From: a virus
Direction: 5' to 3' (one strand)
IMG/VR virus record: IMGVR_UViG_3300046346_000045
Location: 1-37,537 of that record
Length of the DNA stretch: 37,537 bases
The translations under genes were made by a program, and so were the position numbers. How positions within the stretch are numbered: the first letter of the stretch is position 1; every line of letters starts with the position of its first letter. Under the pieces are notes generated by a model. It had not been told where the DNA came from. It saw only the letters and a list, made by a program, of their open reading frames with translations, and ran no database searches. Of the stretch, positions 619 through 37,283 are shown piece by piece.

Positions 619-1056
619 ATGGCAACGAATATTCTGCAACAGGTTATTACTTATAACGAAAGTAACCTTGCGCTTCTTTTAAACTCATTTTGCTTCTTAA
701 GCACCGCGAATAAAAAGTTCGTCGGTTTTAATGATGACATTCCAAAGAATCTTGGGGATACAGTATCGTTTGATCTGCCTCCTCGTTTCACCACCACTAA
801 TAGCTTGGTTGTAACATTCCAGCCTGCTGTTCAGCGCGTGCAAAATTTAACGGTTAACCAACAAGCGTCGACCGCTTATGAGTTCACTGCCCAACAATTT
901 ATTTTCAATGTCAGGGACTACATGAAAGTCTTTGGAAAAAGTGCGGTAGCTGAATTAGGAACTCAAGTTGAATCTAACGTTGCTCAATTAGCTGAGACCA
1001 ATACATATCGTTTCTATGGGGATGGAATTAATCCAATTAACTCATATTTGCAGCTT
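619..1056 (+). CDS. Major capsid (coat) protein, exon 1
   Basis: This encodes the first 146 residues of a P22 gp5-like coat protein, the main shell subunit. The frame appears to run on to a stop at 1078-1080, but those last codons are intron sequence. Spliced after CTT (1054-1056) to GCA at 1305, the frame gives a continuous 414-residue protein, close to the 430 of P22 coat. The start ATG at 619 has GGGAG at 606-610. The break falls after the segment ending INSYLQL. Assignment rests on position after the scaffold, length and general fit to the family. Confidence 0.85.
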
Positions 1057-1304
1057 TGCGACAGTAGAGCCGCTGCTTAGTAATAGGCAGATGAAACCGG
1101 GTGAACTCAGGGGATATCTCACGTAGACAATCCTGAGCCAAGCCTCGAAAGAGGAAGGTGCAACGACTAGAGCGAAAGCTCGTACATTCAAGTGAATGGA
1201 AGCGCCCGGCCCCTGAAAAGGGTGAAGATATAGTCTAATCTACCAGGCGACTGGTAGCTGCCGAAAGGCGGGTTAAGCCTAACGAACTTAATCGAATATA
1301 AATG
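1057..1304 (+). ncRNA. Self-splicing group I intron (subgroup IA-like), no internal ORF
   Basis: All core helices can be drawn by hand. P1 pairs 1053-1059 with 1064-1070, with the U1056-G1067 wobble exactly at the splice site. P3 pairs CCGGGTG 1097-1103 with CGCCCGG 1203-1209. P4 pairs CTCAGG 1106-1111 with CCTGAG 1132-1137. P6 is 1143-1146/1151-1154. P7 pairs GACTA 1165-1169 with TAGTC 1231-1235 inside the classic GAAGATATAGTC element. P7.1 is 1170-1173/1178-1181 and P7.2 is 1185-1189/1194-1198, which suggests subgroup IA. P8 is 1211-1214/1219-1222. P9 is a 6-bp stem, 1241-1246/1251-1256, with a GCGA tetraloop. The intron ends in G1304 (omega G). Removing 248 nt restores the coat frame. Confidence 0.93.
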
Positions 1305-4396: not shown

Positions 4397-5986
4397 ATGG
4401 GAACAGAGTTATCAACGCCAGCACCAGTCAATGTGGTTGGATCAAGCAAGTTCGGCGTCTGGCCTAAAATATCGCTTGAAAAAACATACAATATGTACAT
4501 CAGTGATGAATGGATGATATCTTTCCCTGGGTATAAGAAAGTGGCTCAACCAGCTGTTAGTGGAGAAGGCCGCGCTATATTTCGTTCCGTTCGTGGTGGA
4601 TTTTTAATAGCCGTTATTGGTTCTGGTGTTTATAGATTAAATGCCAACCTTGCTCCAATATTTATAAGAAATATCTCTACTATAACTGGTGAAGTATTCA
4701 TAGATGAAAATCTCGAAGGTCAGATATGCATTGTAGATGGGGCTAACGCTTATATATATTATTACCCTGGTGGGTTATTCCAGACCCAAGCATTAGTAGA
4801 TGTAAATGGAGATCCAATTATTCCAGGGTATGTTTCATATCATAATGAATTATTTCTAATCGCTCCTGCAAAAAGCAGTCTATTTAACCAGAAATGGTAT
4901 TCATTTGAATTTGCAACCACGACTACAATAACCGTTTTCTCTGAGCAAACTTTATCTACAAAGCCAGATAGAACTGTTGCTGTAAAGCGAATTCCAGGAC
5001 GCGGTAATAACGTTATCGTACTTGGAGAATCTGTTGCTGAGATTTGGACCTTTACGGGTGCCGAGCCAGTAGGTGGGGTTTCACGGATATACACTCGTGT
5101 ATCCTCTTATAATATTGATAATGGCTGCATATCCGTTTCAACGATTGCCTCCGGGGAAGATACGATTGCCTGGTTGGCGGTTAACGAATCTAACAGCCCG
5201 GTTATCATGGTAACCAATGGCGCCGAGACTAAGCAGATATCCACGGATGGTATAGATCATCTAATGGAGAGCATTCAATTTCCTGAGCAGTCTACTGCCT
5301 TCTTCTTTCGTCAAAATGGTCATTTGTTTTACCAGTTAACTTTCTTTAATCCTGTTGACAATTTAACCTTGATACACGATTTTACAAGCAGCCAGTTCTT
5401 TCATCTAGCCGATGAAAGCATGAATTTTCATATAGCTCGAGATATCGTTTATTTTAACGAGAAATCATACTTAGTCTCTATTAGAGATGCAGCTATTTAT
5501 GAGATTAGCGATGAATTTAACACATACAATTACTCAACGCTTCCAGATTCAGTCGGAGAGGAAATCCCAAGGATTAGAATATGCAAAACAATACGTAAAG
5601 AGGATAGCTCTACATTTAGATGTGGCATGTTCACATTTTGGATAGAACAAGGTGTAACCTCGTTTACCTCTAATGAAGGTTGCGATGGCGTTCTTATAAC
5701 AGAGATTGAAGAGGACACAATAATCTCAGAATCAGGACAGACATTACTTAGCGAAGATGGATCTTGTATGACAGATAATAATAGGCCTCGAGTAGACTTA
5801 TCCTTATCTAAAAATGGAAATCAATCGTTTAGCAATATTGTTGGTCGAGAACTAAATGAAATGTCACATTTTAGAAATCAAATAAGGTGGCATCGAATGG
5901 GCCAAGCAAATGAGCTAACAATTCAATTGAGATTTTGGGGATTAAATAGATTCGTGTGTTCAGACGGAATCGCGGAGATCTATTAA
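4397..5986 (+). CDS. Packaged-DNA stabilisation protein / tail hub, P22 gp10-like
   Basis: The protein has 529 residues (P22 gp10 has 472). It opens with a region typical of the family (SKFGVWPKISLEKTYNMYIS, then a FPGYKKV segment) and continues as repeated beta-strand blades. It would form the tail hub under the gp4 ring, closing the channel after packaging and holding the fibres. The start has GGAG 5 nt upstream. Its stop overlaps the ATG of the next gene by one base (TAATG). Confidence 0.85.
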   Translation: MGTELSTPAPVNVVGSSKFGVWPKISLEKTYNMYISDEWMISFPGYKKVAQPAVSGEGRAIFRSVRGGFLIAVIGSGVYRLNANLAPIFIRNISTITGEVFIDENLEGQICIVDGANAYIYYYPGGLFQTQALVDVNGDPIIPGYVSYHNELFLIAPAKSSLFNQKWYSFEFATTTTITVFSEQTLSTKPDRTVAVKRIPGRGNNVIVLGESVAEIWTFTGAEPVGGVSRIYTRVSSYNIDNGCISVSTIASGEDTIAWLAVNESNSPVIMVTNGAETKQISTDGIDHLMESIQFPEQSTAFFFRQNGHLFYQLTFFNPVDNLTLIHDFTSSQFFHLADESMNFHIARDIVYFNEKSYLVSIRDAAIYEISDEFNTYNYSTLPDSVGEEIPRIRICKTIRKEDSSTFRCGMFTFWIEQGVTSFTSNEGCDGVLITEIEEDTIISESGQTLLSEDGSCMTDNNRPRVDLSLSKNGNQSFSNIVGRELNEMSHFRNQIRWHRMGQANELTIQLRFWGLNRFVCSDGIAEIY

Positions 5987-21056: not shown

Positions 21057-21881
21057 CTATTGCCCCATTCCAGCTAATTTATCGGCTAATCGGTCTGCCT
21101 GGCTAGCCTGCTTTTGCATTTCAAAGACATTAGTATCAATATTAGCCTCTACTAGCGCGGCTTTTCCAATTACATCTAGGTTCTGCCCGTCATATTCATG
21201 AGCTTCATCGAAAGATATTCCAGCATTTAAGTTAACTGAAGTAGGAGCAAGCTTCAAGATACGGCGAATAACCGTCTTTTGCGCCATTTGATCATAATCA
21301 GATATCCATGGTCCTTCATTTGGAGTTTTAGAGCGCGCTCGTACTTTTTCTATATCTTCAATATCCATGAAATCAAAATGTTTCTCTCCATCTTTCATGG
21401 TTACTATTGCGTAGTACCCTATTGCTTGACCTTTATTTCCTATTTTTCTTTTATGAATAATTAAATCTTTATTGCCAAGTTCAATTGAAAATTCATCGTT
21501 TCCATATACTGTAAATGCTTTTATTGTGGATATTACACCTGTTCTATATGCCATCTCTATCATACCTCTATACCCTAATTGGACTGTCAGTTTTGTAGTT
21601 CTTGTGTCTCCGTCCCACCTTGGAATTAGGTATACCATTCCGGCTATGCCTGGCTCGAGTCCCATCTGAGCGCAGGACATTATAGCACCACATATAGATT
21701 CAACGGTGCATTTATTTAATTTTTGGCTTTTTGATAACTCTACATAGAAAAGACGGATCAATCGCTTAGCGCACATTTCGTTTGGAACTATATTAGATAG
21801 GAGATCTTCCATCTTAACTAAAGTTCCATATGCTGGTATTACTATCTTTGTTGATACTTCATTTGTTGCTACTTCGTTCAT
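21057..21881 (-). CDS. recT: RecT-family single-strand annealing protein
   Basis: The protein has 274 residues. Typical RecT core segments are present: SICGAIMSCAQMGLEPG (about 62-78), a VYLIPR strand, KLTVQLGYRGMIEMAYRTG (about 95-115), and the downstream DYDQMAQKTVIRR helix (about 210). RecT coats and anneals single strands made by a partner exonuclease. Its start overlaps the stop of the YqaJ exonuclease gene by 4 nt, the usual recE/recT-type pair. They would drive recombination and concatemer formation during replication. Confidence 0.93.
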   Translation of the reverse strand: MNEVATNEVSTKIVIPAYGTLVKMEDLLSNIVPNEMCAKRLIRLFYVELSKSQKLNKCTVESICGAIMSCAQMGLEPGIAGMVYLIPRWDGDTRTTKLTVQLGYRGMIEMAYRTGVISTIKAFTVYGNDEFSIELGNKDLIIHKRKIGNKGQAIGYYAIVTMKDGEKHFDFMDIEDIEKVRARSKTPNEGPWISDYDQMAQKTVIRRILKLAPTSVNLNAGISFDEAHEYDGQNLDVIGKAALVEANIDTNVFEMQKQASQADRLADKLAGMGQ

Positions 21882-22810
21882 GTTACTTCTTGCCCTTCTT
21901 GTTGTTGTTTAAATATAAATCGTCGTGATGCTGCACCGGTTTTTACATACTTATTATGCAATTCTTCATTCTCTTCTTTGAATGCTTGCATATCAAATCT
22001 TCTGGATTCCGCAGCTTCTTTCCATGTAGCTGCTATTTTACCAGAGGTTGTTAGCAAAGTATCTTTTTGTCCCATATATATCTTAATTTTATCCTCTAAT
22101 TTATCCTTTAATTCAGAGGCTTTTTTGATAGATTCCCTAACATGGTTAAGTTTCTCTAGATTTTCCTCTATGTCATTATCAGCTGTCACCTGGTCTTCGA
22201 TAGAACGATACCCATAAAGACTCAAAACCTCCGCACCATTTGATGGCGTAGGAGCAATATTTTTAGTTACACACTTCCAAAATTCCCGATATTTCCTAAG
22301 CATCATTTCTTCTAATTTCGGATTGCGCTCTATCGTGTAATACCTGAAGTCATTACCTCGTATTAGAACTGCGACATGTGCTTTTTGAACGTTGGCAACC
22401 AGCATGTAATGAGATATCTGCAGAAGATAATGATCCGGAATTTGATTATGATTCGTTTGTCCCCATCCTTCATCATGAGATGCGGTTTTAGCTTCGAATA
22501 TTGCATCATCTCCGACTCTTCCATCTATATTCCCTGCTAAGTAGGGAATCTCAGGATGAACGATAAGGTTATTATCAATCGTTACCTTTAGTCCTGTTTC
22601 ATGCTCAAACCAAGCTTTTACCGCGGGCTCAAGAAAGTTTCCAGCTTTAATATAAGGATTATCCGAGATATCTTTTCGGTGGATTTGTCTTGTCTTTTCC
22701 TGCCAAAGTTGAACAATGTTTCCCCACGGAGATACACCGCAAATTACCGCGGCATCGCTGCCGCATATATAATTTAATCTCTCTTCTAATTGCTCTGACG
22801 TTAGGCTCAT
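21878..22810 (-). CDS. YqaJ-type (lambda-exo-like) 5'-3' exonuclease
   Basis: The protein has 310 residues. The PD-(D/E)xK catalytic set is visible: GSDAAVICGVSPW (17-29), E61 in FLEPAVKAWFE, D96 in GNIDGRV, E106-A-K108 in IFEAKTAS, and Q131 in YLLQISHY. It resects double-strand ends to give 3' tails for the RecT-like partner. The C-terminal third is a charged coiled coil. ATGA overlaps couple it to the genes on both sides. Confidence 0.93.
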   Translation of the reverse strand: MSLTSEQLEERLNYICGSDAAVICGVSPWGNIVQLWQEKTRQIHRKDISDNPYIKAGNFLEPAVKAWFEHETGLKVTIDNNLIVHPEIPYLAGNIDGRVGDDAIFEAKTASHDEGWGQTNHNQIPDHYLLQISHYMLVANVQKAHVAVLIRGNDFRYYTIERNPKLEEMMLRKYREFWKCVTKNIAPTPSNGAEVLSLYGYRSIEDQVTADNDIEENLEKLNHVRESIKKASELKDKLEDKIKIYMGQKDTLLTTSGKIAATWKEAAESRRFDMQAFKEENEELHNKYVKTGAASRRFIFKQQQEGQEVT

Positions 22811-37199: not shown

Positions 37200-37283
37200 C
37201 TGCCTGTACCTCAGTTGGTTAGAGGGGATTTTGGAGTTAAAGCCTCCGGGGTCAAGTCGTTGGTTCGATTCCAACCAGGTGGA
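37200..37283 (+). tRNA. tRNA-like element, anticodon uncertain
   Basis: The acceptor stem is CTGCCTG (37200-37206) with CAGGTGG (37276-37282), seven pairs including two G-U. TA is at positions 8-9. The D arm is CCTC/GAGG with loop AGTTGGTTA (37209-37225). The T arm GTTGG-TTCGATT-CCAAC (37259-37275) is canonical. The middle is not: a 5-bp stem TGGAG/CTCCG (37232-37236, 37244-37248) with loop TTAAAGC leaves about eight extra bases after the D arm. The alternative GATTT/AAAGC stem gives a long variable region and no U33. No CCA is encoded. It is either an atypical tRNA or a decayed or repurposed one. Confidence 0.55.

Follow-up and report, generated by a model that had tools for sequence, protein, structure and literature searches.

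The coat protein gene of this virus is almost certainly interrupted at positions 1057-1304, between codons 146 and 147 and in phase 0, by a self-splicing group I intron of IA2 type. In sister viruses the same gene is, on comparison of their sequences, a repeated landing site for this intron lineage. The intron itself is ordinary; the surprise lies in the repeated, multi-site and endonuclease-poor occupation of head genes. The window referred to below is the whole stretch of DNA analysed, an IMG/VR virus record of 37,537 bases, and its relevant features are:

2-571, + strand: head scaffolding protein, truncated by the end of the record so that its 3' part remains (phrog_8865, E 1.7e-7)
619-1056, + strand: coat exon 1, codons 1-146 (half-gene match to phrog_283 major head protein, E 3e-10)
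1057-1304, + strand: group I intron without ORF, 248 nt (RF00028, 83.3 bits; intronless alleles)
1305-2111, + strand: coat exon 2, 268 codons and stop (half-gene match to phrog_283, E 9e-5)
2206-2886, + strand: free-standing HNH-type endonuclease gene (phrog_2340 endonuclease, E 1e-7)

Coat gene and limits of the intron

The coat is of P22 type, as indicated by its match to the phrog_283 profile (E 1e-18 for the intact, intronless homologue of locus L002) and by the scaffold gene just upstream. The P22-type set is extended by portal and large terminase genes, which lie at the opposite end of the record, and by a head closure gene at 4397-5986. No homologue of the spliced coat was detectable in the annotated phage collection; the prokaryote genome collection yielded six coat relatives (metagenome bins), in which no introns were seen. 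An AlphaFold model of the coat (mean pLDDT 43) was too poor for use.

The HNH-type gene begins 95 nt past the coat stop, before the next gene. No association between this gene and the introns was seen, the gene being present in intronless kin and missing from several carriers. Other observations on the neighbourhood concern a tRNA-Leu (gag) at 37200-37283, near the record end; a stretch that matches coat residues 5-32 with 54-68% identity and precedes the coat gene by about 1.4-2.4 kb in L006, L013, L016 and L138; and two to three tandem paralogues of a gene of about 250 aa after the coat in L021, L007, L029, L040 and L041.

An ORF-less group I intron in the coat gene had been proposed from inspection of the sequence, and the covariance search bears this out: RF00028 matches positions 1047-1257 (+) over the full model with 83.3 bits against a gathering threshold of 50 (E 6.2e-20). 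It is the sole Rfam family reaching its gathering threshold within the window, and this is its single match in the entire record. Excision of 1057-1304 joins 438 and 804 coding bases (146 and 268 codons) into a frame of 414 residues, exactly as the original prediction had calculated. The limits of the intron are exact because the DNA of intronless L002, whose coat is 96% identical to that of the window, runs uninterrupted through the 146/147 junction: it reads ...ttacagcttgcaaatgct, compared with ...ttgcagctt joined to gcaaatgca in the window. Loci L003, L004 and L034 are likewise intronless and contiguous at this point, and coat identity to such relatives is 95-96%. Contig L035 has the same core sequence and splice ends as the window intron, which argues against an assembly artefact.

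Inside 1057-1304 no ORF of at least 60 aa was found, only the ends of the exon ORFs running in (the exon-2 ORF call begins at the ATG 1302-1304, the 3' end of the intron), and the homing endonuclease that marks a mobile group I intron is not encoded in it.

Ribozyme fold and splicing

The helices P1, P3, P4, P6, P7, P7.1, P7.2, P8 and P9, which the original prediction had paired by eye, were all located on the sequence, as were the U-G pair at the 5' splice site and the G at the 3' end; P2, P5, P6a, P9.1 and P9.2 were added. Their positions are:

1053-1070, + strand: P1, exon GCUU (1053-1056) with guide GAGC (1067-1070)
1073-1090, + strand: P2, whose 5' strand region holds the in-frame stop TAG 1078-1080
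1097-1209, + strand: P3 (1097-1103 with 1203-1209), enclosing P4-P6a, the P7 5' strand, P7.1 and P7.2
1106-1158, + strand: P4, P5, P6 and P6a (helix placement and covariation)
1165-1235, + strand: P7 (1165-1169 with 1231-1235), guanosine-binding helix, pseudoknotted with P3
1170-1198, + strand: P7.1 (1170-1181) and P7.2 (1185-1198), both with compensatory changes
1211-1222, + strand: P8 (helix placement and covariation)
1241-1292, + strand: P9, P9.1 and P9.2 (helix placement and covariation)
1304, + strand: terminal G of the intron, 3' splice site (excision arithmetic and comparison of intron ends)

None of 200 dinucleotide shuffles folds as well as the intron (z -4.1). Across nine related coat introns 95% of the cells are paired, and two-sided compensatory changes affect 32 of 68 pairs (68 cells), a level reached by none of 500 shuffles; the signal is lost when the alignment is slid by 1-3 columns. 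The structure thus combines P3-P8 and P4-P6 domains, the P7 pseudoknot and covariation, to which P7 and P5, being invariant across the nine introns, contribute no signal. P1 pairs little in this count, as expected of a helix whose exon strand differs from intron to intron. In all 12 coat introns the exon ends in U, the intron ends in G and at least four P1 pairs can be formed with the intron's own exon, the U.G pair included, the best-scoring P1 register not being unique in L144 and L185. In the window, U1056.G1067 lies at the 5' splice site and three further pairs follow within the intron.

The presence of P7.1 and P7.2 is a hallmark of subgroup IA. From their location between P7 and P3 we take the window intron to be IA2-like.

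On this model, the ribozyme would fold within the coat transcript with the guide GAGC paired to exon GCUU, a guanosine bound in P7 would attack after U1056, and the freed exon would attack after G1304, yielding a coat mRNA of 414 codons. The window intron is a predicted splicing element; the original prediction further suggested that its splicing efficiency might limit virion yield. A point against this reading is P10, for which a loose 4-bp match starting at nucleotide 6 of exon 2 is all that the window intron offers.

The reading frame of exon 1 ends at TAG 1078-1080 in P2, ahead of P3. Such an early stop is a common property of the 12 coat introns: in each of them the frame of exon 1 runs into a stop within the first 25 nucleotides of the intron (1-25), P3 beginning at about nucleotide 44, and it is kept although the insertion phases comprise 0, 1 and 2. 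Early in-frame stops have been viewed as helping intron folding (PMC3984707). In the window, UAG 1078-1080 would halt ribosomes before P3, and may in this way let the core fold.

Related introns in coat and other head genes

A search with the coat protein gave 45 loci, most of them intronless. Further coat introns were reached by means of a pattern made from P7-P7.2 alone and two more intron patterns, and the ten carrier records compared below comprise the window and three records reached through the coat gene, the remainder being reached through intron sequence. Apart from the window site, the coat insertions are:

Codons 46/47: L021, L022, L026 and L027, 247-nt intron
Codons 46/47: L050 and L144, found by intron patterns
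Codon 144: L040, 7 nt upstream of the window site
Codons 43/44: L054/L058 and L055, found by intron patterns
Codon 143, phase 1: L171 and L185, found by intron patterns
After codon 5, junction inferred: L145, on a distant P22-like branch
Near codon 19: L196, on a distant P22-like branch
Codons 90/91: L041, unrelated 203-nt insert (L041 1476-1678)

Judged by its sequence signature, this intron subfamily is present at about seven positions of phrog_283 coat genes, with a guide that matches its own exon in each case. RF00028 gives exactly one match, located in the coat, in each of the ten carrier records, and none in 12 intronless kin. L186, whose coat is more distant, has two introns. The L041 insert gave no RF00028 match in the Rfam search; a P1 with U.G and compact group I-like helices, without P7.1 and P7.2, can be drawn for it by hand, and in ctn9Y15 (L227) the P22 coat gene is interrupted by a relative of it.

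When 61 intron cores were placed in a tree, the window intron fell into a single clade of eleven phrog_283 introns (support 99/93); L185 adjoins this clade and L186 lies elsewhere. The tree shows, as far as core sequences go, that related introns occupy different coat sites and that most of them have a common ancestry. If the clade is right, the lineage has changed site several times, because its related members stand at different sites. As for the order of site changes within the coat introns, AU tests of site-by-site monophyly were not significant.

The same 61 near-complete cores point beyond the coat of P22 type when their flanking ORFs are grouped into BLAST clusters and a single member of each is compared with PHROGs. 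Most of these compact relatives, for which intron sequence was the sole search criterion, appear to lie in major head genes of four families: 45 of 61, namely 16 in phrog_1328, 14 in phrog_283, 11 in phrog_371 and 4 in phrog_1357, counts that are assigned by cluster rather than gene by gene and are inflated by near-identical phages. One core is in a portal gene and 15 are elsewhere, seven of the latter from the annotated phage collection. Near phrog_1328 head genes, three introns are present in L181 and two apiece in L176 and L184; these, like the pair in L186, stand within or beside one major head gene. That scan also gave interrupted relatives, in which an ORF separates the two halves of the core; most of these are beside DNA polymerase-like sequence.

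Origin and movement of the intron

The ORF-less lineage would have occupied the coat gene repeatedly, at several sites, with its guide adjusted at each of them. The candidate modes of movement are intron-intron recombination, reverse splicing and collaborative homing.

The first of these is a possibility that we entertain tentatively: a P1-P2 module tied to the hot spot at codons 143-147 would have been joined to a core of the 46/47 type. The window core is nearest to that of L021 (91% identity), whose intron sits 300 nt away in the gene; its identity is 88-91% to the 46/47 introns L021, L026 and L050 and 80-82% to L040 and L171, which stand at the 143-144 sites. In the P2 region, on the other hand, identity reaches 86-90% with L040 and L171 and 52% with the 46/47 introns. 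Pairwise Fisher tests of L040 and L171 against L021, L026 and L050 give p values from 1e-6 to 9e-5, but in the group-wise maximum-chi-square permutation test p is 0.10; the informative columns are few and partly paired, hence not independent, and a common P2 could also be favoured by the in-frame stop. The mosaic of P2 and core is therefore suggestive. Between the window and L021 the core (91%) is more alike than the coat DNA (69%), which ribozyme constraint could explain.

Ectopic reverse splicing is doubtful. Here excised intron RNA would enter coat mRNA at a guide match of 4-6 nt, be copied into DNA and recombine with the genome. It agrees with the presence of related ORF-less introns at about seven dissimilar sites, and late coat mRNA is presumably abundant. 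Besides, the 5' exon tetramer AGGU and its guide are common to the 46/47 introns, L145 and L196, at non-homologous sites, and AGCU and its guide to L055 (43/44) and to L171 and L185 (codon 143); such sharing at unlike sites was the criterion used for fungal rDNA (PMC1299323). A guide match is, however, needed for splicing whatever the route of arrival and does not discriminate; reverse splicing was not demonstrated in genetic crosses (PMC1299323), and no reverse transcriptase was found in any of the 25 records searched, where divergent genes may escape and some records are fragments.

Collaborative homing, in which a free-standing endonuclease (here the HNH-type gene product) cuts intronless coat alleles and so spreads an ORF-less intron, is unlikely. 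It is a known mode for ORF-less phage introns (PMC3984707), the HNH-type gene stands right behind the coat, and RecT and YqaJ recombinases are encoded by the record. Nevertheless, relatives of the HNH gene occupy the same downstream spot in intronless L003, L018 and L046, while carriers L021, L026, L040 and L041 have none there, and seven unlike sites could hardly be addressed by one endonuclease. Searches covered HNH, HNH_3, GIY-YIG, LAGLIDADG_3 and phrog_2340: of the carriers, the window and L145 alone gave a homing-type endonuclease, and GIY-YIG was absent from 25 records and LAGLIDADG_3 from 17, with the provisos that divergent genes may escape and that some of the records are incomplete. 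The exons show no rise in identity close to the intron site when compared with L002, L003, L034 and L021, and no co-conversion tract was seen around codon 146 in these comparisons. The two recombinase genes lie at 21057-22810 (-) of the window and could serve intron recombination.

That the insertion is no intron at all but a decayed sequence, with the coat made as two polypeptides or reduced to a pseudogene, is very improbable, for although two separate ORFs are visible, compensatory changes run throughout the intron, excision restores the frame exactly and the guide changes together with the exon.

The group I intron being retained as the reading of 1057-1304, a broader proposal is that an ORF-less IA2 lineage specialised on head genes hops between coat sites without an endonuclease, by reverse splicing at the RNA level or by swaps of 5' modules; this is speculative and we hold it with little confidence. 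In any case the coat introns offer a natural series of site changes in a single-copy gene and a test bed for ideas on intron movement without endonucleases.

Comparison with known systems

An intron in the major capsid gene of P22-like phages had been called uncommon in the original prediction. A narrow search of open-licence papers turned up none on an intron in a P22-like coat gene, which is weak evidence of novelty, whereas capsid introns as such are published: in mycobacteriophage LittleE, where RT-PCR proved the case (PMC3706429), in Tuc2009, cited as a further case in a passage of the same paper, and in crAss-like phages, whose MCP gene contains group I introns, sometimes several per gene (PMC7886860). 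The forecast that gene callers would report two broken coat genes is matched by the head genes of C72C1 and ctn9Y15, annotated as split CDS; in ctn9Y15 (MW202674.1) the label 'P22 coat protein' is given twice, to two CDS around the intron. What appears as two broken head genes can thus be one spliced gene, which is a warning for annotation.

The closest phage relatives outside head genes are IA2 introns that interrupt genes for DNA polymerase, nrd and terminase, for example in Pseudoalteromonas phage pYD6-A and in Acinetobacter and T4-like phages. They share the core with P7.1 and P7.2, and the best matches reach about 70-77% nucleotide identity over 50-210 nt. Those introns stand in replication or packaging genes and that of the window in the coat; several of the polymerase and nrd introns carry or adjoin HNH-type ORFs, whereas the window intron is ORF-less. 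Phage C72C1 (OQ984150.1) has an intron of the same subfamily (76.6% identity in an alignment covering 60% of the intron), which likewise splits a head gene and has no forward ORF annotated within it, but the head protein is of another family (phrog_1328) and the intron is unannotated in the record. The inserts of ctn9Y15 and L041 are group I-like and also in P22-type coats, but of a different type, about 203 nt in L041, with P7.1 and P7.2 not seen and with that of L041 missed by RF00028.

In LittleE (Cluster J; PMC3706429), as in the window, the insertion is in the major capsid gene, but it measures 819 bp, has an endonuclease ORF and occupies a single site in an HK97-type capsid of another family; its splicing was demonstrated by RT-PCR and protein sequencing, whereas the window intron is known from its sequence. 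The MCP introns of crAss-like phages belong to unrelated phages and were recognised by their endonuclease domains (PMC7886860). Finally, the fungal rDNA introns for which reverse splicing was proposed (PMC1299323) likewise stand at unlike sites that share the guide-pairing nucleotides only, although their host is a nuclear structural RNA and that of the window intron a single-copy phage mRNA.
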